Assembly: GCF_001570965.1 (NCBI RefSeq)
Contig: NZ_BCSR01000027.1
Location: 1 to 41,299 of the forward strand
Direction of reading: 5' to 3'
Origin: Janibacter corallicola NBRC 107790
GTDB lineage: Bacteria; Actinomycetota; Actinomycetes; Actinomycetales; Dermatophilaceae
DNA length: 41,299 bases
In this document: in pieces, positions 9,809-39,136 of the stretch
Layout of the letters: every line of letters starts with the position of its first letter
Position numbering within the stretch: position 1 is the first letter of the stretch
Position numbers and translations under genes: made by a program
Notes under the pieces: generated by a model
Database searches by the model: none
Told to the model about the DNA's origin: nothing
What the model saw: only the letters and a program-made list of their open reading frames with translations

Positions 9809-10546
9809 TCAGCCGTCCTGCCAGGCGGTGAGGTCGCGCCCCAGCAGCCCCTCCAGCCGGCCGATCCCCTCGGCGTACTCCTCGTGCAGGTGGCGTCGCA
9901 GACCGGGGTCGAGTCGAGGCAGCTCGTCCCACTCGGGAGTCAGCTTCGCGTGCTTGCGCGTCTTGTCGTTGACCCGGAAGTCGAGGTCCTCGGCCGTGAG
10001 GTCGCACTCGACGCCGAGATGGTCCATGACCTCGCCGACGAAGCCCAGCGGGTCGGCGACGAGGTCGTCGTAGAGCATCGGCTTCAGCTGCGGGTGGATG
10101 CTCCACCAGGTCTCCAGCGCCTCCGCGTACCGGCCGAGGGAGAGCACCGAGTACTCGTCGGTGAGCTGATCGATCGTGGCCGTGTACGGGAAGCGGCCCT
10201 TCATCATGTGGTGGATGTAGGCGGACTCGTAGCGCTGCACGGGGTTCCGGAAGACCGCCACCATCGCCGGCGAGCCGAGGAGTGAGCGGATGTTCTCCGC
10301 CGTGGTCGGCCGCGCCCGGAAGTAGTGCGGGGTGCTCTCGAGGTAGTAGCGGACGCCGGGGTCCTGGGCGGGGAAGTGCTCGCGCAACGCGGTCACCTTC
10401 GCGGGGGCGTCGAAGTCCGGCTGGTTGAAGAAGTTCAGCTCCTTGACCTCGGAGGCGAACACGTGCCGCGAGCGCCCGAGACCGTGGTGCAGCCAGCTCG
10501 TCCCGCTCTTCTGGGAGCCGACGACGAGGAAGTTCGGCAGCGGCAT
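9809..10546 (-). CDS. Sulfotransferase family protein (PAPS-dependent)
   Basis: A 245-residue cytosolic sulfotransferase. The 5'-phosphosulfate loop is GSQKSGTSWL at about 10-19 and the 3'-phosphate motif is VFRNPVQRYESAY in the middle of the protein. Both are needed to bind PAPS. The ATG at 10546 is chosen because the P-loop then falls at the usual N-terminal position and a GAGAGG site precedes it. A longer open frame upstream has no family similarity. It is divergent from a second, dissimilar sulfotransferase. The acceptor is unknown; the glycosyltransferase-rich context suggests a glycan. PAPS synthesis genes are not in the window. Confidence 0.85.
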   Translation of the reverse strand: MPLPNFLVVGSQKSGTSWLHHGLGRSRHVFASEVKELNFFNQPDFDAPAKVTALREHFPAQDPGVRYYLESTPHYFRARPTTAENIRSLLGSPAMVAVFRNPVQRYESAYIHHMMKGRFPYTATIDQLTDEYSVLSLGRYAEALETWWSIHPQLKPMLYDDLVADPLGFVGEVMDHLGVECDLTAEDLDFRVNDKTRKHAKLTPEWDELPRLDPGLRRHLHEEYAEGIGRLEGLLGRDLTAWQDG

Positions 10547-10692
10547 TTCCGGTCCCTCTCCTGGTCGCGTCCGGGGCAGCGGTTCCGAAGGTATCCGGGC
10601 CCGACCGGCGACCCCGCGAACGCACCCTGAACTCCGCGTGAACTCATCGCCTCCGACCTCCCGCGAGCACCGGCGGAGGGCCGCCTCGTCGT

Positions 10693-10698
10693 TAGCCT
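10693..10698 (+). promoter_or_regulatory. -10 box of a probable leaderless promoter
   Basis: TAGCCT, then six bases, then the ATG at 10705. In actinobacteria a TAnnnT box six or seven bases before the start codon marks leaderless transcripts. No ribosome site is present, which agrees. Confidence 0.5.
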
Positions 10699-10704
10699 CC
10701 CCGC

Positions 10705-11910
10705 ATGACCGAGACCACCCCCCTGACCCCGATCCCACCGCGGTCCGTGCTGTTCCACGTCGGCGCGATGAAGTCGGGCACGACCGCCGTGCAGCGGGCG
10801 GCGCACCGACGCCGCAGCGAACTGCGCGAGCACGGCGTGCGCTACCCCGGCCCGGCGGTGAACCACTTCACCCCGGTCGCGGCCTTCATGGGGCTCCGGC
10901 GCGAAGGGGAGCTGCCGGACCCGGCGACGTGGCACGAGCTCATGTCCCGGGTCCACGCCGAGCAGGACCGCCGGGTCCTGCTCAGCCACGAATGGGCCTG
11001 CGAGGCGGACGAGGAGACCGTCGGGCGCTTCGCCGAGGCCCTCGGCGAGCGCCTCCACGTCGTCATCACGTTGCGCCCCCTCTCGGGCCTGCTCGGCTCC
11101 TACTGGCAGGAGATCGTCAAGAACGGCCAGGCTGCGCCCCCCTTCGGGGAATGGCTGCGGGAGGCGCTGGCCACCCCGCCCGGGGCCCGGCAGAACACCC
11201 AGTGGGACCGGCAGAGCGACCAGGCGGGGATGGTGCGGCGCTGGGAGCGGGCGCTGGGACCGGAGCGGGTCACGGTCGTCATCGCCGACAAGGCGGACCC
11301 GGCCCGCGTCCCCAGCTCGCTGGAGCAGCTGCTCGACCTGCCGGCCGGCACGCTCACCGCAGCCGGCACCGACGGCGGCACCGCGAACCGGTCCCTCTCG
11401 CCGGCGGAGGCGGAGTTCTTCCGGCGCCAGAACCACGCCTTCCGGCGCAACCGGGTGCCCTTCCGGGAGTACGCGCTGGACTACCGTCGCCGCTCCGTCG
11501 CTCGCCTCCTGGCGACCGAGCCGGCCCCCTCCGCGGGACGGATCGTGCTGCCGCAGTGGGCCGCCGAGCAGGCCACCATCCACGGGCGCGAGATCGCCGA
11601 GCAGATCGCCACGAGTGGGGCGCGGGTCGTCGGCGACCTCGCCGCGCTGCACGCGCCGGTCACCTCCGCCGTCCCCGGCGAGCTGCCGGTCCCGGAGAGC
11701 ATCCCCATCGACGGCGCGGTGGAGGCCGTCGTGGCCTCGGTCCTCGTCGGCACCGGCCGCGAGGGCACGAAGGGGGCCACCCCGGCCCGCAGGACCCGGA
11801 CCGAGACGATCAAGGAGCGGGTCCGCGCCCTCCCCGGGGGGCGCACGGCACTGCGCGGGGCACGTGCCGCCCGCCGACGGCTGGCCGACCGCGGCGCGAA
11901 CGCCTCGTGA
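10705..11910 (+). CDS. Sulfotransferase-like P-loop protein
   Basis: A 401-residue protein with an N-terminal P-loop HVGAMKSGTTAVQ (about 18-30) of the sulfotransferase type, followed by VVITLRPLSGLLGSYWQ, which fits the 3'-phosphate-binding strand and helix. The middle is rich in charged residues. The final 40 residues are strongly basic and alanine/arginine-rich and may be disordered. It differs clearly from the neighbouring sulfotransferase at 9809-10546, resembling the longer actinobacterial forms found in glycan loci. Translation is probably leaderless from the ATG. It is followed after 124 bases by a glycosyltransferase pair. The acceptor is unknown. Confidence 0.72.
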   Translation: MTETTPLTPIPPRSVLFHVGAMKSGTTAVQRAAHRRRSELREHGVRYPGPAVNHFTPVAAFMGLRREGELPDPATWHELMSRVHAEQDRRVLLSHEWACEADEETVGRFAEALGERLHVVITLRPLSGLLGSYWQEIVKNGQAAPPFGEWLREALATPPGARQNTQWDRQSDQAGMVRRWERALGPERVTVVIADKADPARVPSSLEQLLDLPAGTLTAAGTDGGTANRSLSPAEAEFFRRQNHAFRRNRVPFREYALDYRRRSVARLLATEPAPSAGRIVLPQWAAEQATIHGREIAEQIATSGARVVGDLAALHAPVTSAVPGELPVPESIPIDGAVEAVVASVLVGTGREGTKGATPARRTRTETIKERVRALPGGRTALRGARAARRRLADRGANAS

Positions 11911-11973
11911 ACCCCCTGTGAACACCGTCCCGGCAGGGGCCGAAACGACTCCCGGGGGGCCCGGATCCATGCC

Positions 11974-11979
11974 TACGCT
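11974..11979 (+). promoter_or_regulatory. Candidate -10 box before the GT2 pair
   Basis: TACGCT about 55 bases before the ATG at 12035. Upstream, CCCCTG (11913-11918) and CAGGGG (11934-11939) could form a weak stem that ends the sulfotransferase transcript. Confidence 0.3.
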
Positions 11980-12034: not shown

Positions 12035-12994
12035 ATGACCCCACCCGACCTGTCCGTCGTCATCCCGATGCACAACGCCAGCGCGACCGTCGTCGGGGTG
12101 ATCGAGACCTTCCTCGGCATCGACTCCGCGACCATCGAGGTGATCGTCGTCGACGACGCCTCCAGCGATGACTCGCTCGCCCGCGTCCGGGCCGTCGACG
12201 ACCCCCGCGTGGTCCTCGTGCCGCTCCCGCACAACCACGGCGCGGGCATCGCCCGCAACCACGGCTTCGCCCGCGCCACCGGCCGTTACGTCCTCTTCTT
12301 CGACGCCGACGACCAGATCCACACCGAGACCCTCACCACCACCCTGGACGCGCTCGACGCGAGCGGGGCGAGCGTGGCGATGCTCCCCTACCGGTACCGG
12401 CGCCCGGACTCGGAGTCCGAGGAGATGAACTCCTACGACATCGCGGTGTGGACCAAGTACGCGACCTCGCCCCGGCGGCTCGCCCGGCTGGACGAGGTCC
12501 CCGGGCTGCTCGGCTTCACGAACTACCCGTGGAACAAGGTCGCCCGCACCGAGCACTACCGGCGCACCGGGCTGCGCTACGGCGCCACGCAGGTGCACAA
12601 CGACATCCTCGGGCACTGGCTGACCCTCGTCGACGCCGAGACCGTCCTGCTCATCGACCAGCCCCTCACCACCCACGTCGTGGGCGAGGGCGGGCGCAAC
12701 CTGACCAACCGCGAGAGCCGGGCCCGGCTGAGCCTCATCGACGCCCTCGACGAGACCTACACCGAGCTCGAGGCACGACCCGCCAAGCGGCGGCGCTTCG
12801 CCCGGCAGTACTGGGACCTCGTCACCCGGGTCACCGGGTGGGCCTCCGGCCGGATCACGCCGGAGGTCCGCGACGAGTTCAACCTGCGGGTGCAGGACCA
12901 CATGCTGCGCATCGACCTGGGCGACTTCCACCGGATCCGCTTCCGGCAGGACGCCGGGCTCGCCAGCCGCCTCGTCCGCCGCGCACAGGCCTGA
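12035..12994 (+). CDS. GT2-family glycosyltransferase
   Basis: A 319-residue GT-A fold glycosyltransferase. The N-terminal strand LSVVIPMHNASATV and the nucleotide-binding VIVVDDASSDDS (about 40-50) are followed by the metal-binding acidic motif FFDADDQI near 90. It has no membrane segment. The ATG at 12035 gives a protein beginning directly with the GT2 fold; the longer open frame upstream is rejected. A second GT2 gene starts 16 bases after the stop, so the two are an operon. The sugar donor cannot be deduced. The nearby UDP-galactopyranose mutase makes UDP-galactofuranose one candidate. Confidence 0.88.
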   Translation: MTPPDLSVVIPMHNASATVVGVIETFLGIDSATIEVIVVDDASSDDSLARVRAVDDPRVVLVPLPHNHGAGIARNHGFARATGRYVLFFDADDQIHTETLTTTLDALDASGASVAMLPYRYRRPDSESEEMNSYDIAVWTKYATSPRRLARLDEVPGLLGFTNYPWNKVARTEHYRRTGLRYGATQVHNDILGHWLTLVDAETVLLIDQPLTTHVVGEGGRNLTNRESRARLSLIDALDETYTELEARPAKRRRFARQYWDLVTRVTGWASGRITPEVRDEFNLRVQDHMLRIDLGDFHRIRFRQDAGLASRLVRRAQA

Positions 12995-13010
12995 GAGAAG
13001 GGAGTTCGCC

Positions 13011-14366
13011 ATGGCCGAGCTCAGCATCATCGTCACCACGTACAACATCGAGGACTACATCGAGCAGTGCCTCGCGAGCGTGGCGGCCCAGACCCTCACC
13101 GACATCGAGGTCATCGTCGTCGACGACGGCTCCTCGGACTCGACGCCGGAGCTGATCAGGCGCTTCTGCGAGGGCGACGCCCGCTTCGTCCCCGTCCTCC
13201 TCGGCGAGAACAGCCCGGGAGGCGTCGCCACGCCCGCCAACGTGGGCCTGGACCGCGCGAGCGCCCCGTGGGTGGGCTTCGTCGACGGCGACGACCACAT
13301 CGAGCCGACGATGTTCGAGCGGCTGCACGCCGCGGCCCGCACCCACGACGCCGACCTGGCGATGTGCGACTACCAGGAGGAGGTCGACGGCACCGGCGAG
13401 CGCCGCGACCCGGCGGACGCCCACCGGTGGGCGCCGCTCACCGACCCCTGCTACGAGCTCGACGTCCCGACGAGCCACACCTTCCTGCGCTTCATCGCCG
13501 TCCCGTGGCGCAAGCTCTACCGGCGGGAGCTGCTGGAGTCCCGCTCCATCCGCTTCCCCGTGGGCGACGGCTTCTTCGAGGACAACCCCTTCCACTGGTT
13601 CGCCATCGTCTCCGCGCGCTCGATCGCGCTCGTGCCCGAGGTCCTCTGCTACCACCGGGTGGCCCGCAGCGGCCAGACGATGGCCACCGCGGACGAGCGG
13701 CTCTTCCACATCTTCAGCCACCACGACACGATCCACGACTGGCTCGCCGCGCAGGGCCTGCTCGACCTCTACACGGTCCCGCTGCTGGGGTGGGTCATAT
13801 CCCAGATGGAGTGGATCTCCCGGCGCACTCCCCCGGAGCGCCACCGCCAGCTCTTCGACGTGCTCACCCCGATCCTCACCCGCTACCCCCTCGAGACGAT
13901 CCGGCGGGCGCTGGCGGAGAACAACAAGGGTGCGAGCACCCAGCGCCTCACCACCGCCGTGGCGAAGGGGGAGTTCGCCACCTTCGTGCGGACGTTGACC
14001 ACCCGACCGGGCACGGACAACCCCTTCGTGACCGCGGCCTTCCACCTGCGCCACTCCGGGGTGCGCCACACCGCGGTGCTCACCGGCCGCTACCTGCGCA
14101 ACACCGTGCAGGACAGCCGGCTGCCGGGATACCTCACCCGTGCCCGCAGCAAGGCTCCGGACTCCAGCGGCCGGGACGTCCTCTTCGGCCTGACCGTCAT
14201 CGAGCGGCGGCTGCAGCGGATGGAGGCGCGCCTCACCGAGATCGAGGGCCGACTGGACGCGGGCTCCGGGGTACCCGACGCCCGCGCCTCGCTAGGCGTC
14301 GACGAAGAAGGGCGCGATCGGCTCGGAGCGGTCGATCGCCTCGAGGATCCCGTCGGCCGCGGTTAG
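13011..14366 (+). CDS. GT2-family glycosyltransferase with C-terminal coiled coil
   Basis: A 451-residue glycosyltransferase. The GT2 core occupies about residues 1-230: LSIIVTTYNIEDYI, then VIVVDDGSSDST, then FVDGDDHIE as the metal site. A helical C-terminal region follows, ending in a probable coiled coil (IERRLQRMEARLTEIEGRL, about 398-416). A GAAGGGAG site precedes the ATG at 13011. The last 25 or so codons overlap the 3' end of the convergent glf gene by 75 bases, so the charged tail (about 426-451) is encoded antisense to the Glf C-terminus. The fold is similar to poly(glycerophosphate)- and teichoic-acid-type glycosyltransferases, but the substrate is unknown. Confidence 0.87.
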   Translation: MAELSIIVTTYNIEDYIEQCLASVAAQTLTDIEVIVVDDGSSDSTPELIRRFCEGDARFVPVLLGENSPGGVATPANVGLDRASAPWVGFVDGDDHIEPTMFERLHAAARTHDADLAMCDYQEEVDGTGERRDPADAHRWAPLTDPCYELDVPTSHTFLRFIAVPWRKLYRRELLESRSIRFPVGDGFFEDNPFHWFAIVSARSIALVPEVLCYHRVARSGQTMATADERLFHIFSHHDTIHDWLAAQGLLDLYTVPLLGWVISQMEWISRRTPPERHRQLFDVLTPILTRYPLETIRRALAENNKGASTQRLTTAVAKGEFATFVRTLTTRPGTDNPFVTAAFHLRHSGVRHTAVLTGRYLRNTVQDSRLPGYLTRARSKAPDSSGRDVLFGLTVIERRLQRMEARLTEIEGRLDAGSGVPDARASLGVDEEGRDRLGAVDRLEDPVGRG

Positions 14367-15434
14367 CGCCTCCGCGATCGTCACGTCCATGTCGAGGTAC
14401 CGGTAGGTGCCGAGGCGACCGACGAAGGTCACGTCGGGCTCCTCCCGCGCGGCGTCGAGGTACCGGGTCAGCAGCGTCTTGTCGGTGGTCATCCGGATCG
14501 GGTAGTAGGGGATGTCGCCCTCCTCCGCGAGCCGGCTGTACTCCCGGAAGCAGACGGTGCCCTCGTGCTCCTCCCAGGGAGCGAAGTGCTTGTGCTCCGC
14601 GATCCGGGTGTACGGCACGTCGATGTCGCCGAAGTTCATCACGGGGCACCCGAGGTAGTCCCCCTTCGCCCGGATCTCCTCGAAGTCCAGGGTCCGGTAG
14701 CGCAGGTGACCGAACTCGTGGCCGAACCACGCGTCCAGCTGGCCGGTCCAGATCGAGTGGTCGAACCGCGAGCGCTCCCCCAGCGGGAAGGGAGTCCCGA
14801 GCCGGACCTCGATCCCGGGGTGGTCGAGGATGCCCTCGACGATCGCGGTGTAGCCGTCCTTCGGGATCGCCTGGTACGGGTGGTTGAAGTAGGAGTCCTC
14901 GTAGCTGAAGCGCAGCGGCAGCCGCTTGAGCACCGAGGCCGGGATCTGCGTCGGGGGCAGACCCCACTGCTTGCGAGTGTAGCCGTGGAAGAAGGCGTCG
15001 TAGAGCTTGCGGCCCATGAACTTCAGCGCCTGCTCCTCGAAGTTGGCCGGCTCCTCGATCGTGTGGTCGGCCTGCTCGTCGATGAAGGCGCGCGCCTCGT
15101 CCGGCCGCAGGGCGGTCCCGAAGAGCTGGTTGATCGTCAGCAGGTTCACCGGGAGCAGATAGGTGCGCCCGCCGACGGTCGTCCGGACCCGGTGGTTGTA
15201 GGGCATCATCCGGCCGAACCGGTTGATGTAGCTCCACACCCGCTCGTTGCCGGTGTGGAAGATGTGCGGCCCGTACCGGTGGATCATCACCCCCGTCTCC
15301 GGGTCCCGCTCGGTGTGGCAGTTCCCCGCGACGTGGTCCCGGGTGTCGAAGACGTGGACCTCGTGCCCGGCCTCGGCCAGCTCACGGGCGATGACCGCCC
15401 CGGAGAAGCCGGCTCCTGCGATGCCGAACCTCAT
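14292..15434 (-). CDS. glf: UDP-galactopyranose mutase
   Basis: A flavoenzyme that converts UDP-galactopyranose to UDP-galactofuranose, the donor for galactofuranose-containing wall glycans. The 380-residue protein has the FAD-binding GxGxxG at 7-12 (GAGFSG), the hallmark YGPHIFHTG near 60, and the substrate-region motifs GYTRKQWG and YYPI. Length is typical. The ATG at 15434 has an excellent GAGGAGGT site; longer open-frame sequence upstream is rejected. It converges on, and overlaps by 75 bases, the GT2 gene at 13011-14366. Its presence is the firmest clue to a sugar in the glycan encoded here. Confidence 0.95.
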   Translation of the reverse strand: MRFGIAGAGFSGAVIARELAEAGHEVHVFDTRDHVAGNCHTERDPETGVMIHRYGPHIFHTGNERVWSYINRFGRMMPYNHRVRTTVGGRTYLLPVNLLTINQLFGTALRPDEARAFIDEQADHTIEEPANFEEQALKFMGRKLYDAFFHGYTRKQWGLPPTQIPASVLKRLPLRFSYEDSYFNHPYQAIPKDGYTAIVEGILDHPGIEVRLGTPFPLGERSRFDHSIWTGQLDAWFGHEFGHLRYRTLDFEEIRAKGDYLGCPVMNFGDIDVPYTRIAEHKHFAPWEEHEGTVCFREYSRLAEEGDIPYYPIRMTTDKTLLTRYLDAAREEPDVTFVGRLGTYRYLDMDVTIAEALTAADGILEAIDRSEPIAPFFVDA

Positions 15435-15640: not shown

Positions 15641-16570
15641 ATGGCCACGATCCCGACCATCGCCACGGTGGGGTCCACGGACCGACCGCGCTGGTCCGTC
15701 CTCATCCCGGTCCACGACTGCGCCGACCACCTCGCGCGGGCTCTGCCCCAGGTCGTGGCGCAGCTCGGCGACCGCGAGGACGCCGAGATCGTCGTCGTCG
15801 ACGACGCCTCGCGGGACCACCCCGAGGAGGTCGTCGCCGAGCTCGGGCGCGGACGGGTCCGCATCGAGCGCAACCCACGGAACCTCGGCGCGGTCGCGAC
15901 CTTCAACCGCTGCCTCGAGATCGCCCGGGGCGAGCTGGTGCACCTGCTGCACGGCGACGACGAGACGCTGCCCGGCTTCTACGCCTTCATGGAGCAGGCG
16001 CTCGCCGCACCGGGAGCCGTCGCGGCGGTGTGCCGGGCCCAGGACATCGACGAGGCGGGCACCCCGCTGTACACGACGCGCTCCTACCGGGAGGGCACCC
16101 AGGTCTGGACCGACGCCCTCGACGCCTTCGCGGTCTCCAACCGGGTCCGGGCCCCGGGCATCGTCGTCCGCCGCCGCGCCTACGAGGAGGTGGGCGGGTA
16201 CCGCACCGACCTGCCGCACGCCGCGGACTGGGAGATGTGGACCCGCCTCGCCGCGCACGGTCCGGTGGTCTTCGTCGACGAGGTGCTCGCCCGCTACCGC
16301 AAGCACGACGGTTCGCACACCTCGACGCTCGTGCGCTCCGGCGCCAACGTCCGCGAGCGCGTCACCGCCATCGGCGCCGTCAGCGCGCACGTCGACCCCG
16401 CCCGCCGCCCTTCGACGGTGCGCCGGGCCCTGGCCCACTCCGTCTACTTCGCCGGACGCTCTTCGTTCGGCCTGGCCCGGTCCGGCGACTGGACCGCAGC
16501 CCGACGGCAGGCGCGCGAAGCAGCCCGCTGTGCCGCACTCATCCCCACAGGTATCGAGGTGTCCCCGTGA
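15641..16570 (+). CDS. GT2-family glycosyltransferase
   Basis: A GT-A fold glycosyltransferase of 309 residues from the ATG at 15641; a GTG at 15632 would add three residues. GT2 motifs are WSVLIPVHDCADHL, VVVDDASRDHP near 47 and the acidic metal site LLHGDDET near 100. EMWTRLAAHG fits the acceptor-side ED/EM motif. The C-terminal 60 residues are helical and basic. The stop overlaps the GTG of the next glycosyltransferase (GTGA), so the two are translationally coupled. It is divergent from glf with 206 bases between. The donor sugar is not predictable, but galactofuranose is plausible by neighbourhood. Confidence 0.88.
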   Translation: MATIPTIATVGSTDRPRWSVLIPVHDCADHLARALPQVVAQLGDREDAEIVVVDDASRDHPEEVVAELGRGRVRIERNPRNLGAVATFNRCLEIARGELVHLLHGDDETLPGFYAFMEQALAAPGAVAAVCRAQDIDEAGTPLYTTRSYREGTQVWTDALDAFAVSNRVRAPGIVVRRRAYEEVGGYRTDLPHAADWEMWTRLAAHGPVVFVDEVLARYRKHDGSHTSTLVRSGANVRERVTAIGAVSAHVDPARRPSTVRRALAHSVYFAGRSSFGLARSGDWTAARRQAREAARCAALIPTGIEVSP

Positions 16571-17520
16571 GCAGCCCGACTCTGGACCGTGCCGCACCGC
16601 GCACGCGACCGCTCATCCCGTCCGTACCCGTGACCGCGACCTCGTCGCCCCCGTCCCCGGCGCCGGTGCCCCCGAAGCACCCCCGCGTGGGCGTCGTGGT
16701 CCTCACCCAGTCCGACCGCCCGGAGCTGCACGACGCGCTGGCCTCGGTGCGCTCCCAGCGCGGCGTGGACGCCCATCTCGTGCTCGTCGTCAACGGTGCG
16801 CCCGCTCCCGGGACGACCACCCCGGACCACCTGATCGAGCTGCCGGAGAACGTCGGGATCCCCGCCGGCCGCAACATCGGCGCCGCTGCTGCGCGGGCCG
16901 ATGTCGTCGTCTTCCTCGACGACGACGCCGAGCTGCTCGGGCAGGACCACCTCGCCTCGGTGCTGCGCCGCTTCGACGAGGACCCCGGCCTCGGCGCGAT
17001 GGCGATCCGCATCGTCGACGAGTCCGGGGCGACCCAGCGGCGCCACGTCCCCCGCCTCGGGCAGGGCTCAGCCGACCGCTCGGGACCGGTGACCCACTTC
17101 ATCGGGGCCGCCTGCGCGGTGCGCGCGAGTGCCTTCAACGAGATCGGGGGCTTCGACCCGCGCTTCTTCTACTCCATGGAGGAGTCGGACCTGGCCTGGC
17201 GGCTGCAGGACCGCGGCTGGGGCGTCTGGTACTCCGCCGACCTCGCCGCCTTCCACCCCCGCACCCCGGCCTCCCGGCACGCCCGGTTCACGTGGTTCCT
17301 CGCCCGCAACCGGGCCTGGATGGCCTGGCGCTCGCTCCCGCTGCCACTCCTGGTGGCGCACCTGGTGCTGTGGACGGGCGTGTGCGCGTTGCGGCGCCAC
17401 TCGCTGCGGGACGTCCTCGCCGGCTACCGCGAGGCCTGGGCCACCCGCCCCGCCCGCCGACCGATGCGGTGGCGGACCATCGCCCGGATGACCCGCCTGG
17501 GCCGCCCGCCGGTCGTCTGA
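16567..17520 (+). CDS. GT2-family glycosyltransferase (paralogue of 25945-26811)
   Basis: A 317-residue GT2 enzyme. A proline-rich, poorly ordered N-terminus of about 35 residues precedes VGVVVLTQSDRPELHDAL. ENVGIPAGRNIGAA and the metal site VFLDDDAEL follow, then GGFDPRFFYSMEESDLAWRL with the catalytic-base ED-type motif. The GTG at 16567 overlaps the preceding stop. The C-terminal tail (RRPMRWRTIARMTRLG) is almost repeated in the product of 25945-26811, so the two are clear paralogues on either side of the housekeeping block. It resembles rhamnosyl/galactofuranosyl-type GT2 enzymes, but that is inference. Confidence 0.88.
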   Translation: MSSPTLDRAAPRTRPLIPSVPVTATSSPPSPAPVPPKHPRVGVVVLTQSDRPELHDALASVRSQRGVDAHLVLVVNGAPAPGTTTPDHLIELPENVGIPAGRNIGAAAARADVVVFLDDDAELLGQDHLASVLRRFDEDPGLGAMAIRIVDESGATQRRHVPRLGQGSADRSGPVTHFIGAACAVRASAFNEIGGFDPRFFYSMEESDLAWRLQDRGWGVWYSADLAAFHPRTPASRHARFTWFLARNRAWMAWRSLPLPLLVAHLVLWTGVCALRRHSLRDVLAGYREAWATRPARRPMRWRTIARMTRLGRPPVV

Positions 17521-30262: not shown

Positions 30263-30272
30263 GGCCGCTCAG
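30259..30272. terminator. Putative bidirectional terminator between convergent Stealth genes
   Basis: CTGAG (30259-30263) and CTCAG (30268-30272) with a four-base loop GCCG. Both stop codons lie in the arms. Confidence 0.4.
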
Positions 30273-31948: not shown

Positions 31949-32999
31949 GCGGTGGGGGCGTGTCGGCCAGCTCGCGCTCCAGGCGTGCCCGGACGTCGGT
32001 GGCGGCCTGTACGCCCTGCATCTCGGCCTCCCGTGCCCAGTGCAGCGCGGAGCGCGGCCACCGCATCATGCCGGCCTCCGGCTGGTCCAGCGCCTGCGCG
32101 AGCTGCAGCGCGTCGTTCGCGCCACCGTCGGTGGCCCGGGAGTGGAGGGTCGCGAGCGTCGCCGCCGAGTGCCCCGTGTCGGGCTGCCGTCCCGCCGCGA
32201 GCTCCGTGCGCCGCTTGGCGATCGCGTCCGCGACGTAGCGGGAGGAGGTCGCCGGGTCGATCGACGGCTCGGGGTTCAGCTCCCAGTCGTCCTCGTAGCC
32301 CATGGCGTCCATGGCCTCCTTGAGGAGGGGCCGGTAGAACTCCACGTCCTCGGGGGTCATCCAGTCCCGCCACGCGCCGTGCCCCTTGGAGCGGGAGATG
32401 TGGGAGAGCCAGGCCGGGGTGGCGGACTGCTGCGCGTTCAGCGGCAGCCCGAGGTACTGGGCGAGGGTGTCCACGCGGTCGTCGACGAAGTCCTCGTAGT
32501 ACACGAGGAAGAACTCGTTGGCCCTGGCGAAGTCGGTCATCTCGAGCAGCTCCTCGGTGCCCGGGCGCCACTTCTTGTACCCGACCTGGTTGCCCAGCCT
32601 CATGAGCCGCTTGACGCTGATGCTGCCCGGGTCGCGCTCCTTGCGCCGCAACGCCTTGAGGAAGCGCTCGTGCTCGGACATCTCGACCGTGGAGACCACG
32701 CTCTTGATGAGCGGCTTGAAGAGCAGCGTGCTGATGAGGGCGTCCCGCGGGTCACGCACGGTCATCACCCGCCGGTCGAAGGCGGCGACCGGGAAGTTGG
32801 CCATGTTCTTGTACATGATCTTCGTCATGACGCTCAGCTGCGGCGAGGTCCGCAGGGCCTGCTCCAGCGGGTCGAACCGGTTCGGCTCGAAGGAGAAGAG
32901 GTACTCCTGCGCCATCGGTGCCAGGGCCGACTTGATCAGGCTGTACACGCCGGTGGTGCCGGTCTTCTGGCGGCCGACGACGATGATGTTGTGGCTCAC
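31941..32999 (-). CDS. Sulfotransferase family protein coupled to a Stealth gene
   Basis: A 352-residue P-loop protein. The 5'-phosphosulfate loop VVGRQKTGTTGVYSL is at about 7-21 and the 3'-phosphate segment is VMTVRDPRDALISTLLF near 78-94; the R and S expected for PAPS binding are present. The C-terminal 100 residues are helical, contain several Ala-rich pairs of helices that may be repeat-like, and are not part of the minimal fold. The GTG at 32999 has GGAGGGG upstream. It is the first gene of a two-gene unit with the third Stealth gene. The acceptor is unknown but a glycan is likely. Confidence 0.83.
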   Translation of the reverse strand: MSHNIIVVGRQKTGTTGVYSLIKSALAPMAQEYLFSFEPNRFDPLEQALRTSPQLSVMTKIMYKNMANFPVAAFDRRVMTVRDPRDALISTLLFKPLIKSVVSTVEMSEHERFLKALRRKERDPGSISVKRLMRLGNQVGYKKWRPGTEELLEMTDFARANEFFLVYYEDFVDDRVDTLAQYLGLPLNAQQSATPAWLSHISRSKGHGAWRDWMTPEDVEFYRPLLKEAMDAMGYEDDWELNPEPSIDPATSSRYVADAIAKRRTELAAGRQPDTGHSAATLATLHSRATDGGANDALQLAQALDQPEAGMMRWPRSALHWAREAEMQGVQAATDVRARLERELADTPPPRA

Positions 33000-33124: not shown

Positions 33125-33943
33125 TCAGGCGTCGAAGCGGTTCGAGGTGACGATCATCAGCAGGAATCCGCCCGCGGTCGCGAGGGCCAGCGGCAGCGAC
33201 ACCAGCAGCCACCCCGCGAGGACGGTGCCCTCCTCGACCACGCCGAGCGCGGCGAGGACGAGCCCCAGCGTGGCCGCGGCCAGGGTGATGAGCGAGAACT
33301 CGATGGCGACGAAGGCACGGAAGAAGGGGAAGAAGCGCAACAGGCTGCGGGCGGAGCGGAGCCCGGCCGAGCGGGAGGCCGCCGTCTCGGCGCTCTCGTC
33401 CGCCTTGGGCAGGCCGAAGTAGAGCCGGGAGACGAGGACGAGGTCGCCGAAGGACTTCTTCAGCAGCACGAGGCAGCCGACGAGCGCGCCGATCGTCGTC
33501 CAGCCACCGATCGAGGTGGGACCGCCGTCGACGTGGACGCCGAGTGCGATGGGCAGCGCGGCCTCGGTGACGTAGTGGGCGACCCGATCGAGGTAGACGC
33601 CCATCGGCGAGGAGGTCCCCCGCCACCGCGCGACCTCGCCGTCCGAGCAGTCGATGAGGATCTGGAACTGCATGATGAGCGCGCAGGCGAGCACCGCCCA
33701 CCAGGACGGGATCATCAGCACGGCGGCACCGATGATCCCGACGAGGACCATCAACCAGGTCACGCCGTTGGCGGAGATGCCGGTCGGGATGACGGCCCGG
33801 GTGAAGTGCAGGGACAGCGCCCGCAGGTACAACGTCCCGGCCCAGTGCTCGGAGTTGCGTCGCCCCACGACCGAAGGGGGCTGCACGACCGCGCGCAGCT
33901 CCTCCAGCGAGGGTCGGGCGGGACGCGGGCTCTGCTCGCTCAC
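33125..33943 (-). CDS. CDP-alcohol phosphatidyltransferase family membrane protein with altered motif
   Basis: A 272-residue integral membrane protein with about six membrane segments. The family signature is Asp98-x2-Asp101-Gly102-x2-Ala105-Arg106-x8-Gly115-x3-Asp119-x3, but the final position is His123 where the classical family has the catalytic fourth Asp (sequence DGEVARWRGTSSPMGVYLDR, then VAH). Enzymes of this family attach an alcohol phosphate from a CDP-activated donor to an acceptor. The GTG at 33943 overlaps the stop of the upstream TagF-like gene (GTGA), so they are coupled. With CDP-glycerol probably made by the TagD homologue, it might prime or link the polymer. Confidence 0.83.
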   Translation of the reverse strand: MSEQSPRPARPSLEELRAVVQPPSVVGRRNSEHWAGTLYLRALSLHFTRAVIPTGISANGVTWLMVLVGIIGAAVLMIPSWWAVLACALIMQFQILIDCSDGEVARWRGTSSPMGVYLDRVAHYVTEAALPIALGVHVDGGPTSIGGWTTIGALVGCLVLLKKSFGDLVLVSRLYFGLPKADESAETAASRSAGLRSARSLLRFFPFFRAFVAIEFSLITLAAATLGLVLAALGVVEEGTVLAGWLLVSLPLALATAGGFLLMIVTSNRFDA

Positions 33944-36477
33944 GTGTCTCCTGGGGGTCGCGGTCCGGACGGTCTCCGGGGCCCGGCACCGAGGTCGATC
34001 GCAGCGGCGAACTCCTCGAGTGCGGCGGCGTTCCAGCCATCGACGTCGAAGGTGGCGAACTCGGGCCGCTCGGAGACGAGCTCCATCATCGCACGGGCGA
34101 CCGCGTCGTCGTCACGGGGAACGACGACCCCGCAGCCCGGGGGCACCACCCCCTCGACGGAGGAGAAGGCGGTGGTCAGCACGGGGGTGGCCAGCGCGAG
34201 GGCCTCGAGGATCACCATCGGCAGCCCCTCGTGCTCACTCGTCAGCGCGAAGTAGTCCGCCGCGGCCACCACGGGGAAGGGGTTGGCCACGTGCCCGGTG
34301 AGGTGGACCGAGCCCTCCAGCCCGAGCTCGGCCACGAGCCCGCGCAGCTCCCCCTCGAGCGGCCCGTCACCCATGACGACCACGGCGACGTCGTGGCCGG
34401 CCTCCCGGACCGCGGCGGCGGCCCGAACGAGCCGTGCCTGGTTCTTCTCGTGGGTGAGCCGCCCGGCGGTGACGACGGTGACCGTGCCCTCGTCCCGCAG
34501 CGCGGCGACCGCGCCCTCGGGCAGGCCGAGGTCGACGAGGTCGGCGTCGGCCAGCGTGCGCACCCGGCCCGCGTCGACGACGTTGCGCACGCTGACGAAG
34601 CGCGCGTCGCCGGCGAACCGACCCAGGGAGCGCTCGTTCACCCGGGAGAGGGACTCCGAGACGGAGACGAGCCGGTCGTAGCGGTCGTAGAGACCGAAGA
34701 CCTGCTCGAGGTGGTGGGCCCGGGTCCGTCCGTGCTCGTTGGTGCTGCTCACCTCGGCGGCGAGGTCGTTGTGCAGCCAGATCGAGTGGGTACGCACCGG
34801 CCCGGGGGCGACCCCGCGCGAGAAGAGCAGCGCCCAGTAGGGCGAGTACCCGCCGAAGTCGATGACGTGGTCGAACTGCGCCGTCCCGAAGCAGCGCACC
34901 CACTCCTCCTGCAGGAGGCGCACGAGTGCACCCACCGGCACGACCGGGTGTTCGGCCCCGAACCGCTGGAGCAGCCGTCGGGACCACACGACGCGCTTGG
35001 GCCCGTTCATCCCGCCCACCCGGGGCAGCAGCCGCACGCGTGGGTCGATCGCCTCGGCGAAGGCGCGGGGAGCGGCCTTGCGTGCGGGCCCCCAGGCGAT
35101 GGAGACGTCGACCGCGTCGAGGTCGAGGCGCCCGAGCAGCGCGATGAGCGAGGACGTCACGCCGTTGCGCTGCAGCGACCCGCCGTGGATGAGCAGCCGC
35201 GGGACCCGTCCCTGGCGACTCCGCCCGGCCAGCGGGACCTCACGTCCGGTGGTCGGCGGCCGGCCCCGCCACACACGGTCCACCACCCGCTCGGTGGCAC
35301 CACCGTCGTCGAAGGGGGCGTACCGCGCCGCCCACTCCCGACGGGCCTCGGGGCGGGAACCCCCTTCGGCCACCTCGGCGGCGACCTCCTGCGGCGTCGT
35401 GCAGACCCGTCCCGGCAGTTCCTCGGCCGGCAGGTAGAGCGGGCGCAGCGCCTCGTAGGCCTCCCGGTCCGGCACGTGGAAGGTGATCGGGACGCGGGGG
35501 TCGGCGAGCGCGTCGAAGAGGATGCTCGAGTAGTCGGTCACCAGGTGGTCGGTGACGGCCAGGACCTCGTTGGCCGGCACGTCGGGCGGCACGAGCGCCC
35601 CCTCGAGCGAAGGGAGCGCCTCCGCCTGCTCGTGGACCACCGGGTGTGCCTTCACGAGGACCTGCCGGTCCTCGCCGATGGAGGCCCGCAGCTCACGGAC
35701 GAGGTCCTCCAGCGCGCCCGCGTCCAGGCTCGGGTCGGCGAAGGCCTCGCCCCGCCAGGTCGGCGCCACGAGCACGACCCGCTGGCCCGCCCCGATCGCG
35801 ACCCCCTCGGCCCGGAGGCGAGCGCGGATCCGTGCTCGCTCCCCCTCACCGGCCGTGACCTGGACGTCGGTGCGCGGCTGGCCCACCTCGAGCACGCTGC
35901 CCGGCGCGAGCCCCTCCAGCCGGTAGGCCCCCCGGTACATCGTGTCCGTCATGTAGGGGCCGGAGGAGACCAGGTGGTCGGCCGCGAGGAAGTTGCGGAT
36001 GACGTTGGCCGCGCCGAGCGCCCCGTCGGGTGTGTCGTAGCCCATCGACTTCAGCGGGGTCCCGTGCCAGGTGTTGACGTAGGTCTGGCCGGGACGCTTG
36101 CCGAGCTCCGCGGGGAAGGTCGAGTTGGTCACGAGGTACCCGGCCGTCGCGAGGTGGCGGAAGTACCCGGGGGTGCGGCGTCCGACGATGCGCACGCTCC
36201 CTTCGGCCAGGCCCAGGGACCGCACGTGCTCGCGGGCACGCCGGCGTCGCTCGGGATCCGCGACCACCCAGACGTGCCTCAGGTGGCCCATGTCGGGGGC
36301 TGCTACCAAGTGCCGGAAGATCGCGTAGGGGCTGTCCACGAGACCCGCGCCGAAGGTCGACTCGTAGAGCACGGTGTCGGCCTCGACCGGCCGGCCGCGC
36401 CAGTGGGCCACCCACTGCGCCCGCGGGATCCGTCGGGCCCGCCGCAGCACCGAGAGCACCCGTCTCGTCCCACTCAT
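33940..36477 (-). CDS. TagF-like CDP-glycerol glycerophosphotransferase fused to a GT4 glycosyltransferase
   Basis: A bifunctional 845-residue protein. Residues about 30-390 form a CDP-glycerol:glycerophosphotransferase domain with the hallmarks NTWHGTPLKSMGYD (135-148), LVKAHPVVHE near 274 and TDYSSILFDAL (314-324). From about 415 a GT4 (GT-B fold) glycosyltransferase follows: LLIHGGSLQRNGVTSSL, EKNQARLVRAA and the E-x7-E-type SEHEGLPMVILEAL near the end. The ATG at 36477 is nine bases after GGAGG; an ATG two codons earlier is possible. Addition of glycerol phosphate and a sugar to the same polymer is inferred. It is divergent from the exporter and coupled to the CDP-alcohol transferase. Confidence 0.9.
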   Translation of the reverse strand: MSGTRRVLSVLRRARRIPRAQWVAHWRGRPVEADTVLYESTFGAGLVDSPYAIFRHLVAAPDMGHLRHVWVVADPERRRRAREHVRSLGLAEGSVRIVGRRTPGYFRHLATAGYLVTNSTFPAELGKRPGQTYVNTWHGTPLKSMGYDTPDGALGAANVIRNFLAADHLVSSGPYMTDTMYRGAYRLEGLAPGSVLEVGQPRTDVQVTAGEGERARIRARLRAEGVAIGAGQRVVLVAPTWRGEAFADPSLDAGALEDLVRELRASIGEDRQVLVKAHPVVHEQAEALPSLEGALVPPDVPANEVLAVTDHLVTDYSSILFDALADPRVPITFHVPDREAYEALRPLYLPAEELPGRVCTTPQEVAAEVAEGGSRPEARREWAARYAPFDDGGATERVVDRVWRGRPPTTGREVPLAGRSRQGRVPRLLIHGGSLQRNGVTSSLIALLGRLDLDAVDVSIAWGPARKAAPRAFAEAIDPRVRLLPRVGGMNGPKRVVWSRRLLQRFGAEHPVVPVGALVRLLQEEWVRCFGTAQFDHVIDFGGYSPYWALLFSRGVAPGPVRTHSIWLHNDLAAEVSSTNEHGRTRAHHLEQVFGLYDRYDRLVSVSESLSRVNERSLGRFAGDARFVSVRNVVDAGRVRTLADADLVDLGLPEGAVAALRDEGTVTVVTAGRLTHEKNQARLVRAAAAVREAGHDVAVVVMGDGPLEGELRGLVAELGLEGSVHLTGHVANPFPVVAAADYFALTSEHEGLPMVILEALALATPVLTTAFSSVEGVVPPGCGVVVPRDDDAVARAMMELVSERPEFATFDVDGWNAAALEEFAAAIDLGAGPRRPSGPRPPGDT

Positions 36478-36509
36478 GCGCATCTGCCTCCCGGATCGAC
36501 CTGCACGGC

Positions 36510-36533
36510 AGTCTATGAACTGGTCGGTATGAT
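36510..36533. promoter_or_regulatory. Divergent promoters between the TagF-like gene and the exporter operon
   Basis: On the plus strand TATGAT (36528-36533) ends seven bases before the exporter ATG, giving a leaderless mRNA. On the minus strand TAGACT (36515 back to 36510) gives a leader of about 26 bases for the TagF-like gene. The two -10 boxes lie 12 bases apart. Confidence 0.5.
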
Positions 36534-36540
36534 CAGCCGC

Positions 36541-37410
36541 ATGCCTGCGCTGAGTACCCGGGAGGCCCGTGAGCTGGCCACCGGCCACGGCCTACGAGCG
36601 CTCAGCGAACGGCCCCCGCTGCGCCGGTACCTGCGCGACATCTGGGACCGCCGCTCCTTCCTGTGGACCCTCTCCTCCGCGGAGTCCCACGCGAAGAACG
36701 AGGACAACCACCTCGGGCAGGTCTGGGCGGTGCTCAACCCGGCGCTGCTCATCGCGAGCTACTACATGATCTTCGGGCTGCTGCTCGGCACTCGCGGGGG
36801 GATCGAGAACTTCGTCGGCTTCCTCGGCATCGGCGTGGTGATGTTCGCCTTCACCTCGGCGACGGTGACGAGGGGCGCGAAGGCCATCACGGGACGGCTC
36901 GGCCTCGTGCGCACGCTGCACTTCCCCCGCGCGATCCTGCCGATGTCGGTGACGCTCACCGAGTTCCTCGCCTCGATCCCCGCATTCGGGCTGCTCTTCG
37001 TGCTGATGTTCATCACCGGCGAGCGGCCGAACTGGGAGTGGCTGCTCTTCCCCGTCGCCGTGATCATGCAGGGGGTGGCGCTCGTCGGCTTCGCCTTCAT
37101 CGCCGCCCGGCTGGTCAACGCCTCGCAGGACATGGCCAACCTCATCCCCGTCGTCGTGCGGCTGCTGCGCTACGTCTCGGGCGTCTTCTTCCCCGTCGTG
37201 CACTACGCGCAGGCCATGCCCCCGGTGGTCCAGGAAGTCCTGACGATGCAGCCCTTCGCCCTGATGCTCACCACAGGGCGGCAGTCCCTCATGGGCAGCG
37301 AGAGCGTGGTCCTCACCGACTGGCTGGCCATGGCCGTCTGGGCGATCGTCGTCGCAGCCGTGGGACTGGTCATCTTCTGGCGCGCAGAGACCAGGTACGG
37401 CCGTGGCTGA
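36541..37410 (+). CDS. ABC-2 type polysaccharide/teichoic-acid exporter permease (TagG/Wzm-like)
   Basis: A 289-residue membrane protein of the ABC-2 family that forms the channel for export of undecaprenyl-linked polymers. A cytoplasmic N-terminus of about 55 residues (with LRDIWDRRSFLWTLS and HLGQVWAVLNPAL) precedes about six membrane segments. The segment RYVSGVFFPVVHYAQAMPP near 218 is typical of TagG/Wzm. The ATG at 36541 has no ribosome site but follows TATGAT by seven bases. An ATG at 36529 is an alternative but lies in the -10 box. The ATPase gene starts inside its last eight bases. Substrate is inferred from the TagD/TagF homologues nearby. Confidence 0.9.
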   Translation: MPALSTREARELATGHGLRALSERPPLRRYLRDIWDRRSFLWTLSSAESHAKNEDNHLGQVWAVLNPALLIASYYMIFGLLLGTRGGIENFVGFLGIGVVMFAFTSATVTRGAKAITGRLGLVRTLHFPRAILPMSVTLTEFLASIPAFGLLFVLMFITGERPNWEWLLFPVAVIMQGVALVGFAFIAARLVNASQDMANLIPVVVRLLRYVSGVFFPVVHYAQAMPPVVQEVLTMQPFALMLTTGRQSLMGSESVVLTDWLAMAVWAIVVAAVGLVIFWRAETRYGRG

Positions 37411-39136
37411 GCCCGAGCAGGACGCCGCCCCGACCGTCGTCGTCAGCCACCTGAGCGTCACCTACCAGGTGCTCGGCGGCGAGCGGCGCGGCGCCCCGAG
37501 CAGCCAGGGCGAGCGCCGCCCCCTCCGCCAGCTGCTGCGCCCGGACCCCGGTGAGCGCACCCGCGAGATCAAGGCGGTCAAGGACGTCAGCTTCGTCGCC
37601 AGGCACGGGGAGTCCATCGGCATCATCGGCCACAACGGCTCGGGCAAGTCCACGCTGCTGCGCGCCGTCAGCGGTCTCATCCCGCCGACCCACGGGAAGG
37701 TGTGGGTCGCCGGCGAGCCCTCGCTGCTCGGCGTCAACGCCGTCCTCATCAACAAGCTGAGCGGCGCCCGCAACGTCTACGTCGGTGGCCAGGCCCTCGG
37801 CCTGACCACGGCCGAGATCGACGAGAAGTTCGACGACATCGTCGAGTTCTCCGGCATCGGGGAGGCCATCCACCTGCCGATGAGCACCTACTCCTCGGGG
37901 ATGGGCGCCCGGCTGCGGTTCGCGATCTCCACGGCCGCCGCGCCCGACGTGCTGATGATCGACGAGGCCCTCGCGACCGGGGACGCCGCCTTCCGCGAGA
38001 AGAGCACCGCGCGCATCGCGCAGATCCGCGAGGAGGCGGGCACGGTCTTCCTCGTCTCCCACTCCAACTCCAGCATCCGCCAGATCTGCGACCGGGTGCT
38101 GTGGATGGATCACGGCCAGCTCATCATGGACGGCCCCACCGAGCAGGTCCTCTCCGCCTACGAGGCCACCCTGCCGCATGGCACCAAGGAGGAGCAGCAG
38201 CCGGAGGAGGACCCCGAGGTGCCCGGCACGGTGCGCTGGTCAGGCAAGACGAGCTTCCAGGTCGTCCGGGAGATCAGTCGGGCGACCTGGCCCGCGGGCG
38301 TCCCGGGATGCTTCGTGGTGAGCGTGAAGTCCCAGGCGGTCGGCCGGATGGTCGCCCCGATCGCGGCCCGGCTCGGCTGGCCGCTGCTGTGGGTGCGCCC
38401 CGGCGGCCTTCCCGGCGCGACCAGTGACGAGCTGGCCCGTCTCGCCCCCGAGCGCGTCGTCGTCGTCGGTGGCGAGGGTTCGGTCTCCTCCGACACCTTC
38501 GCCCGCATCGAGCGGGTCGTGCCGGGGACGATGGAGCGCCTCGGTGACGACGACACCGGCCGCACCGCCGGCGAGCTGCTGCGGGCCTTCCCCCCGGAGG
38601 ACACCTCGAGGGTCTACCTCACCCGCAGCGACAACCCGGCACGCACCACCATGATCTCGCTCGTGGCGGCGGTGACCGGCCGCGCGGTCACGGCCGGCAA
38701 CCCGAACCGGCTGCGGGAGAAGCACCTCTCCGCCCTCGCCGACCTCCGGCCGGACCGGCTCGTGCTCATCGGGTACGAGGAGGAGTGGCCCGAGGCCACC
38801 GTCGACCGGCTGCGCGAGGCCACGGGGGCCGAGATCGCCTTCTCCACCGACCACGGCCCGATGGCCATGGCCGCGAGCCTGTGGGAGGGCACGGAGGCCG
38901 GGGGTCGGGTGATCCTCGCCGGTCCAGCCACCGTCGAGCTGCTCTCGGCCGTCGTCGTCTCGGGGCACACCGGAACGCCGCTGCTGCTCGCGAACTCCGG
39001 CCGCCTCTCCGACGTCCCCCGGGCGGCCCTGGAGCGGCTCTCCCCCGGGGAGGTCGCCCTGTGCGGAACCCTCGAGACGCTGCCGCCCAAGCTGCGCGGT
39101 TCGCTCGGTGAGGAGCTCGGGGCCGTCCACGCCTGA
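37403..39136 (+). CDS. Polymer exporter ATPase (TagH/Wzt-like) with C-terminal triple CWB2-like region
   Basis: A 577-residue protein. Residues 1-260 are an ABC ATPase of the Wzt/TagH type: Walker A GHNGSGKST (76-84), signature YSSGMGARLRF (163-173), Walker B DVLMIDEALATGD (182-194) and H-loop SHSN. After a Glu/Pro-rich linker (262-275), residues about 295-572 form three similar units: 302-390, 402-480 and 502-572. They carry blocks like PLLWVRPGGL, APERVVVVGGEGSVSSDTF and TPLLLANSGRL. These resemble cell-wall-binding repeat 2. There is no membrane segment, so the region should be cytoplasmic and may recognise the polymer, as C-terminal domains of Wzt do. The CWB2 call is by eye and needs profile confirmation. 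Confidence 0.88.
   Translation: MAEPEQDAAPTVVVSHLSVTYQVLGGERRGAPSSQGERRPLRQLLRPDPGERTREIKAVKDVSFVARHGESIGIIGHNGSGKSTLLRAVSGLIPPTHGKVWVAGEPSLLGVNAVLINKLSGARNVYVGGQALGLTTAEIDEKFDDIVEFSGIGEAIHLPMSTYSSGMGARLRFAISTAAAPDVLMIDEALATGDAAFREKSTARIAQIREEAGTVFLVSHSNSSIRQICDRVLWMDHGQLIMDGPTEQVLSAYEATLPHGTKEEQQPEEDPEVPGTVRWSGKTSFQVVREISRATWPAGVPGCFVVSVKSQAVGRMVAPIAARLGWPLLWVRPGGLPGATSDELARLAPERVVVVGGEGSVSSDTFARIERVVPGTMERLGDDDTGRTAGELLRAFPPEDTSRVYLTRSDNPARTTMISLVAAVTGRAVTAGNPNRLREKHLSALADLRPDRLVLIGYEEEWPEATVDRLREATGAEIAFSTDHGPMAMAASLWEGTEAGGRVILAGPATVELLSAVVVSGHTGTPLLLANSGRLSDVPRAALERLSPGEVALCGTLETLPPKLRGSLGEELGAVHA

Follow-up and report, generated by a model that had tools for sequence, protein, structure and literature searches.

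A teichoic-type polymerase locus with predicted sulfotransferases and a variable gene slot in Janibacter corallicola NBRC 107790

Gene content of the locus

The stretch of DNA analyzed here (the window) is contig NZ_BCSR01000027.1 of Janibacter corallicola NBRC 107790, taken at its full length of 41,299 nucleotides. It is the whole of contig C27 in the strain's own genome (G000; 3.1 Mb, 92 contigs). The window encodes a teichoic-type polymerase, an exporter, enzymes of sugar transfer and three proteins of the sulfotransferase type, and we lean toward the reading that this locus makes a main wall glycopolymer of the strain, decorated with strain-specific modifications that include sulfate.

The genes are arranged in two modules (A, 9809-17520; B, 24541-39136) and do not form one continuous block. 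Module A comprises Glf, four GT2 enzymes and two sulfotransferases (ST1 and ST3), while module B comprises TagD, a TagF-like/GT-B fusion, a CDP-alcohol transferase, three Stealth proteins, the sulfotransferase ST2, the fifth GT2 enzyme of the window (GT2e), a methyltransferase and a TagGH exporter. Between the modules lie DAO, an acyltransferase, DUF445, IMPDH, a PHP protein and four tRNAs. The features are listed below, with E-values after the models matched; PAPS is 3'-phosphoadenosine 5'-phosphosulfate.

9809..10546, minus strand: ST1, sulfotransferase (PF00685/PF13469); PF00685 2.7e-12, 47.1 bits on the longer frame 9809-10738
10705..11910, plus strand: ST3, divergent sulfotransferase-like protein; PAPS loop GAMKSGTT, R-x7-S, family profile similarity
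12035..12994, plus strand: GT2a glycosyltransferase; PF00535 6e-29
13011..14366, plus strand: GT2b glycosyltransferase; PF00535 5e-28
14292..15434, minus strand: Glf, UDP-galactopyranose mutase; PF03275 7e-71, TIGR00031 311.4 bits (cut-off 303.75)
15641..16570, plus strand: GT2c glycosyltransferase; PF00535 1.6e-20 (frame from 15632)
16630..17520, plus strand: GT2d glycosyltransferase; PF00535 2.4e-12
Between modules A and B: acyltransferase; Acyl_transf_3 Pfam match
24541..25248, minus strand: TylF/Methyltransf_24 sugar-type methyltransferase; PF05711 7e-11
25361..25822, minus strand: TagD, glycerol-3-phosphate cytidylyltransferase; TIGR01518 1.3e-45, PDB 2b7l 3e-46
25945..26811, plus strand: GT2e glycosyltransferase; PF00535 8e-11 (frame from 25828)
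26907..28529, plus strand: Stealth 1, the copy common to relatives; PF11380 5e-44
28526..30262, plus strand: Stealth 2; PF11380 6e-45, CR1-CR4 over cut-off (frame from 28433)
30269..31948, minus strand: Stealth 3; PF11380 3e-45, PDB 8j2n (CpsY) 2e-75
31941..32999, minus strand: ST2, sulfotransferase; PF00685 4e-8, 33.4 bits
33125..33943, minus strand: CDP-alcohol phosphotransferase; PF01066 2e-9, 4-base overlap with TagF-GT-B
33940..36483, minus strand: TagF-like/GT-B bifunctional polymerase (TagF-GT-B); PF04464 1.5e-66 plus group-1 glycosyltransferase (frame to 36588)
36529..37410, plus strand: TagG/Wzm-type exporter permease; PF01061 8e-7
37403..39136, plus strand: TagH-type exporter ATPase with C-terminal CWB2 domain; TagH PDB 7dd0 4e-53, CW_binding_2 4.5e-7

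The gene types named in the initial annotation (sulfotransferases, Stealth, Glf, GT2, TagD, TagF, CDP-alcohol transferase, methyltransferase, acyltransferase and TagGH) are all present by Pfam, NCBIfam or PDB matches. Its gene list holds, and the arrangement is that of two modules, separated by tRNAs and genes of unrelated function. The acyltransferase is found with DAO and DUF445 in the relatives G117, G038 and G128, and need not be part of the locus. The gene identities, motifs, synteny, variable gene slot and PAPS genes reported here are read directly from the sequences, while the enzyme activities, the sugars and linkages, and the placement of sulfate on this polymer are predicted.

Backbone synthesis and export

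TagD carries the motifs HIGH and RTDGIST, which are kept in the window and in the full copies of eight relatives, and scores 154.5 bits against TIGR01518, under the cut-off of 165.4. Judging from these matches it would supply CDP-glycerol to the polymerase. In the polymerase, a TagF-like domain bearing catalytic His motifs precedes a GT-B domain. It aligns with Cps3D (PDB 8qoy) at 5e-89 over residues 31-805, covering both catalytic domains, and its first half with staphylococcal TagF (PDB 3l7i) at 3e-29; the motifs WHGTP, KAHP, GRLTHEK and EHEGLPMVILE are present. The CDP-alcohol transferase, whose orthologues in relatives share 81-87% identity, shows a His in place of the last Asp of its motif in all 12 aligned rows from nine genomes, while this motif usually ends in Asp. 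A role for it in chain priming is our guess.

By sequence matches the exporter is of the TagGH/Wzm-Wzt type, and the best NCBIfam matches of TagH are teichoic acid export ATPases, below their cut-offs. The pair of CDP-glycerol synthase and TagGH that marks wall teichoic acid synthesis is present by relatedness, with TagD, TagG and TagH all scoring below the NCBIfam equivalog cut-offs. Genes for the linkage unit (TagO/TagA/TagB) were not recognized in the window, and the rest of the genome was not searched for them.

The predicted structure of TagH is reliable only for about residues 282-572, where it shows repeated alpha/beta units. Its best structural matches, Cwp6 (4e-12) and Cwp8 (1e-11), are wall-anchoring proteins with CWB2 repeats, in agreement with the CWB2 match in Pfam. 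The tail is conserved in three relatives compared by name. Exporter ATPases are normally cytosolic, where a CWB2 tail would meet the polymer ahead of its export; it might select finished chains, as an analogy with the tails of Wzt suggests. In Clostridioides difficile, CWB2 motifs recognize the anionic polymer PSII, going by the title of PMC4973711. No fusion of an exporter ATPase with CWB2 is named in the paper titles among the matches listed.

All four conserved regions (CR1-CR4) were found in each of the three Stealth proteins, with CR4 of Stealth 1 slightly under its cut-off (26.5 against 27.4 bits).

Sulfotransferases of the window

The initial annotation counted three sulfotransferases. 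ST1 and ST2 exceed the Pfam cut-off of PF00685 (22 bits), while ST3 matched no Pfam or NCBIfam model and stands as a probable sulfotransferase on the basis of its motifs and family profile. A PAPS loop of the GxxKSGT type and an R-x7-S motif are present in all three proteins. The former binds the 5'-phosphosulfate and the latter the 3'-phosphate, with a spacing as in known enzymes.

ST1 (loop GSQKSGTS; RNPVQRYES) matches several solved structures, namely PDB 3rnl (4e-13), a heparan sulfate 3-O-sulfotransferase (1t8t, 7e-9) and an aryl sulfotransferase (7e-6). ST2 (GRQKTGTT; RDPRDALIS) found no sulfotransferase among its PDB matches by sequence, and its single-sequence structure model, with a mean pLDDT (predicted local distance difference test) of 40.1, is too poor for fold assignment. 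Matches to ST2 (E <= 1e-8) occur in three of 394 class genomes, own genome included, and the gene is present in one of 119 family genomes. The ST2 and Stealth 3 genes overlap by 8 bases, and the two look like a cassette of their own. We also considered that ST2 regularly travels with Stealth and discarded this idea: the other two genomes with an ST2 match have exopolysaccharide-like stretches without a Stealth match.

For ST3, a family alignment of 19 rows shows an invariant Arg and a nearly invariant Ser in R-x7-S. Compared by hhalign with nine sulfotransferases (seven of G000 and two of relatives), this family reached 95% probability (E 2.4e-8) over 98 columns, which contain R-x7-S but not the PAPS loop. 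At E <= 0.1, five of the 19 members reach Sulfotransfer_4 (best 2.8e-4) and two Sulfotransfer_1 (best 0.0067), while neither the five-row nor the 19-row profile matched a solved sulfotransferase in PDB.

Of 297 genomes sampled from the order, 23 carry a member of the ST3 family (E <= 1e-6), and one wider stretch was taken from each of six chosen genomes of the 23. Glf lies near the ST3 relative in two of the six (G137 and G155). The G137 relative (L162) is accompanied by a Pfam-checked GlfT2-type transferase as well, without a TagF match within the 20-kb stretch around it, while in G155 (L163) a weak TagF-domain match (2e-7) is found nearby. Two further stretches (G265 and G291) contain TagG and TagH together with NeuA-/NeuB-type genes, labels that are Pfam-checked in G265 and given by eye in G291. 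No Glf, TagGH or NeuA/NeuB was found near the ST3 relative in the wider stretches of G354 and G391. Another ST3 copy of G354 (L131) is flanked by APS kinase (51% over 176 aa; APS, adenosine 5'-phosphosulfate) and CysD (68% over 157 aa), and in G156 (L138) the ST3 relative follows one gene after a TagH-like gene. ST3 relatives thus keep company with CysC/CysD, Glf or TagGH genes, which for ST3 itself is the strongest argument that it uses PAPS and acts on surface polymers. Some copies of the family sit inside open frames of 585-708 aa.

The right end of the window appears to continue in contig C72. Its last 20 bases equal the first 20 of the C72 reverse complement, the frame of a PurF protein runs on from C72 into the window (41210-41299), and PurF adjoins PurM in relatives, which is consistent with the join. 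C72 (L043) carries a second TagF-GT-B gene (2697-5249) and a further sulfotransferase gene, ST5 (5237-5866; PF03567, 7.6e-12). If the join is right, a second polymerase and a fourth sulfotransferase lie about 1.5-4.7 kb past the right end of the window.

Variation among relatives

Eight of the 24 other genomes searched contain a close polymerase orthologue (68-78% identity), six of the same genus (G117, G119, G122, G128, G075, G038) and two of another genus (G074, G100), and the neighborhood of the locus was mapped in all eight. Genes in relatives were called with a simple home-made caller trained on the window, and start codons are uncertain; the caller misses lower-GC genes (L077, L166; GC, guanine plus cytosine) and dropped the window gene 13011-14366, which overlaps its neighbor.

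Each of the eight mapped relatives retains TagG, TagH with its tail, TagF-GT-B, the CDP-alcohol transferase, GT2e and TagD, spread over two contigs in G075. Between the CDP-alcohol transferase and TagD the gene content varies, and we refer to this position as the slot. There, Stealth 1 is accompanied by a TagF-type protein (1,119-1,152 aa) in five relatives (G038, G075, G074, G100, G117), while the slot of the window holds ST2, Stealth 3 and Stealth 2 in addition to Stealth 1. The orthologues of Stealth 1 share 59-75% identity (G117, as a 322-aa call, G038, G075, G074 and G100). In G119, G122 and G128 the mapped slot yielded no Stealth call, and Stealth is dispensable as well. A slot gene of G038 (L051 10399-13797) encodes a protein of 1,132 aa in which two stretches match the model of the TagF-type domain; it also has a TarS C-terminal domain and is possibly another multi-domain polymerase.

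G117, G119, G122, G128 and G100 each have a second TagF-GT-B gene. In the last four of these, ST5, a protein of the Sulfotransfer_2 type, adjoins and converges on this second gene, as it does on C72 of the own genome; in G117 it lies beside PurF instead. ST1 orthologues (71-79%) adjoin GT2a in G122, G128 and G100. ST3 orthologues (70%) are present in G122 and G128, while G117 has two ST3-like genes with copies of 48% and 30%.

GT2b served as a marker of module A. It is present (E <= 1e-60) in five of 25 genomes, own genome included, and all five have a close polymerase orthologue. It is lacking in four of the nine genomes with such an orthologue (G038, G075, G117, G119), and G074 has module A without an ST1 match. 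Thus, as far as gene content tells, module A is nested within the genomes that have module B, yet is not obligatory for it. The genes grouped together initially do not travel together.

To the left of both modules, Pst-, Pit- and DUF47-like phosphate genes occupy 44-4542 (named by eye except for two permease domains). The stretches fetched from G038, G122 and G128 contain orthologues of several of them.

Supply of PAPS

PAPS synthesis, suggested earlier as a check, is encoded in the own genome by APS kinase, CysD and CysN. There is one APS kinase match, on contig C73 (3.9e-54). C73 ends inside CysD and contig C31 begins inside CysD, with an exact 44-base end overlap, and CysN follows; CysD was assigned by PF01507, while CysN was recognized by eye. 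CysH, read in G000 and G038, carries the pattern CC..RK..PL plus GCAPC, which we take to mark APS reductases. Consequently, PAPS is probably not needed for cysteine and probably serves sulfation. In line with an APS-reducing CysH, nine of the 15 genus genomes in which CysH was found have no APS kinase match.

APS kinase (E < 1e-50) is present in six of 16 genus genomes, all with the polymerase orthologue. The four genus genomes with a Sulfotransfer_1 or ST3 homologue in a genome-wide search (G000, G117, G122, G128) all have APS kinase and all carry TagF-GT-B. G119, with ST5 only, as found in a fetched stretch, has both as well. Counting ST5 from fetched stretches, APS kinase is present in five of five carriers against one of the 11 other genus genomes. 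A one-sided Fisher test of this co-occurrence gives 0.0014 with ST5 and 0.008 with the genome-wide searched sulfotransferases only, while the carriers belong to one clade and are not independent.

The own genome is rich in sulfotransferases. It has ten PF00685 matches (two under the cut-off), the highest number among 119 family genomes, the next having seven; of the 15 other genus genomes, 13 have none and two have one. Four sulfotransferases (ST4, ST6, ST7, ST8) lie on C73 and C31: one on C73, separated from the sulfate genes by a priming-type transferase, and three on C31, some kb downstream of CysN after Wzy-/Wzx-like genes (Wzy, Wzx and priming-type labels by eye). ST7 exceeds the cut-off of the Stf0 model (8.8e-7). 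The same locus (L044 and L077) contains nucleotide-sugar enzymes, named by eye, and its GC content is lower, at 0.59-0.66, in L077 1500-11300.

Interpretation

Taken together, the locus would build a conserved, type II teichoic-like backbone whose decoration differs from strain to strain. TagD would make CDP-glycerol, from which TagF-GT-B would alternate glycerol-phosphate and one sugar, yielding poly(glycosylglycerol phosphate) as in type II teichoic acids; the sugar would be alpha-linked if TagF-GT-B behaves like Cps3D. The CDP-alcohol transferase would probably make the primer or linkage, while GT2 and Stealth enzymes would add side sugars and sugar-1-phosphates, and Glf would supply galactofuranose in genomes with module A. 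Cytosolic sulfotransferases could then transfer sulfate from PAPS to sugar hydroxyls before export by TagGH, where the CWB2 tail of TagH may recognize the finished anionic chain. The PAPS would come from CysDNC, and for cysteine the cells probably use APS itself. The slot would act as a swap site for Stealth, sulfotransferase, acyltransferase and second-polymerase genes, and sulfation is probably a swappable decoration. We infer a clade that kept the backbone with its swap slot and gained a PAPS-dependent decoration.

The initial annotation went further and proposed one polymer that contains phosphate, sulfate and galactofuranose. The genes of a glycerol-phosphate-type polymer, its own exporter, Stealth, Glf, sulfotransferases and PAPS synthesis bear out the parts of this proposal, while their union in a single polymer is not supported, as GT2b is absent from four of nine polymerase-bearing genomes. 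In a form with fixed composition the proposal is, going by gene content, contradicted by the relatives. A narrower version, one doubly anionic "sulfo-teichoic acid" consisting of sulfated poly(glycosylglycerol phosphate) with galactofuranose side chains that is built by a Gram-positive TagF-like/GT-B polymerase, modified by several sulfotransferases, among them the ST3 family, and checked by CWB2 before export, seems rather doubtful to us, although we keep it as a tentative idea.

Several observations weigh against sulfate on this polymer. In G038, G075 and G074, three of the eight mapped relatives, TagD, TagF-GT-B, the CDP-alcohol transferase and Stealth 1 are kept, while none of the 11 G000 sulfotransferase queries (1e-4) matched in their 57-60 kb stretches, a search that could miss other sulfotransferase types; such retention without sulfotransferases had been named beforehand as something that would refute a shared polymer. 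G038, which lies outside the clade of the carriers, has APS kinase without a Sulfotransfer_1 or ST3 homologue genome-wide, and G100 has kept ST1 and ST5 without an APS kinase match in its genome, so that its sulfotransferases are either unused or supplied in another way. In a Sir+CysH tree of 15 of the 16 genus genomes (G129, without a PF01507 match, was omitted), G000, G117, G119, G122 and G128 form one clade (100/99), and the co-occurrence with APS kinase is therefore close to one event. ST5 was looked for in fetched stretches only and not in the nine genus genomes without TagF-GT-B. A gap of 125 bases separates ST2 from the upstream core gene on the side of the CDP-alcohol transferase, which weakens the notion of one operon of ST2 with TagF. 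Finally, C73/C31 is a second locus, for an exopolysaccharide that is probably sulfated and would be the chief competitor for PAPS.

The strongest alternative is one that we regard as possible, if unlikely: the sulfotransferases of the window might act on another polymer, such as the Wzx/Wzy exopolysaccharide of C73/C31, or on the product of the galactofuranose module only, and their location with TagD and TagF would be a by-product of a hotspot for surface genes. Four sulfotransferases near CysC, CysD and CysN, the company that ST1 and ST3 keep with a Glf module whose GT2b is not universal, and the G137 stretch, with Glf and no TagF match, all fit this explanation. However, ST2 sits between a Stealth gene and core genes, ST5 pairs with a second TagF-GT-B on C72 and in four relatives, and TagGH loci, too, contain ST3 relatives, while the one of G155 has both Glf and a weak TagF-domain match in its vicinity.

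It appears improbable that the substrates of the sulfotransferases are small molecules or glycolipids, as with mycobacterial Stf enzymes, and not a polymer. In favor of this reading, the families are broad, Pfam does not separate their substrates, and ST7 matches Stf0. Against it, heparan sulfate 3-O-sulfotransferases are among the solved relatives of ST1, although an aryl sulfotransferase is one as well, and the neighbors in the window and in relatives include glycosyltransferases, Glf, Stealth or polymer exporters. Least credible of all is that the genes are recent unused passengers or lack a donor in some hosts, as the rarity of ST2 and the situation in G100 might suggest, since all three frames are open with PAPS motifs present, some relatives retain ST1 and ST3 with about 69-79% identity, and the own genome has APS kinase.

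Comparison with known systems

Sulfated wall glycans of some Microbacteriaceae may already be described. Among the matches listed, mainly from open-access literature, there was no sulfated teichoic-type polymer of Gram-positive walls, which is a weak negative. If sulfate is placed on the polymer of this locus, a second anionic group would be added to those of teichoic-type polymers, and the slot provides natural pairs of strains with and without sulfotransferases for a clean comparison.

The nearest model for the backbone comes from Actinobacillus pleuropneumoniae. A TagF-like/GT-B architecture makes poly(glycosylpolyol phosphate) (Litschko 2018; PMC5974469), and in this domain order poly(glycosylglycerol phosphate) with an alpha-linked sugar is formed from CDP-glycerol and UDP-galactose (PMC5974469, PMC8262930). 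Like Cps3D and Cps7D, the window polymerase has a TagF-like and then a GT-B domain, with catalytic His and E-x7-E motifs, and is accompanied by a glycerol-phosphate cytidylyltransferase. In contrast to Cps3D, it belongs to a Gram-positive host, lacks about 380 N-terminal Cps3D residues, and its product is predicted from sequence. TPR domains are predicted at the N-terminus of most members of this polymerase family (PMC5974469, PMC8262930). The role of TagF-like homologues in type II wall teichoic acid synthesis was left for study by the authors, and the present locus bears on that question (PMC5974469). As for Stealth, the third copy of the window resembles CpsY (PDB 8j2n; 2e-75), while the window differs from CpsY-type systems in having three copies, one of which overlaps a sulfotransferase gene.

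With respect to sulfation, two actinobacterial systems are comparable. The wps-1 polysaccharide locus of Actinoplanes missouriensis has two predicted sulfotransferases, and the loss of AMIS_7390, a sulfate adenylyltransferase/APS kinase gene near wps-1, impairs sporangium formation; according to the authors, sulfation of its exopolysaccharide is a prediction awaiting proof (PMC13390465). Unlike the window, wps-1 represents a Wzx/Wzy pathway, for which the available text does not mention CDP-glycerol, and it is nearer to the C73/C31 locus (PMC13390465). In Pontimonas salivibrio, sulfate activation and PAPS-dependent sulfotransferases were proposed to modify the wall, as we suggest here, while a polyrhamnose core was inferred and TagB and TagD were reported missing, in contrast to the window (PMC6106888). 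Furthermore, that species is described as having no PAPS/sulfite reductase (PMC6106888), while CysH and a sulfite-reductase-like gene, the latter named by eye, are present in our case. Sulfated actinobacterial polysaccharides have thus been predicted before (PMC13390465, PMC6106888), and the idea of sulfation at the present locus is plausible.

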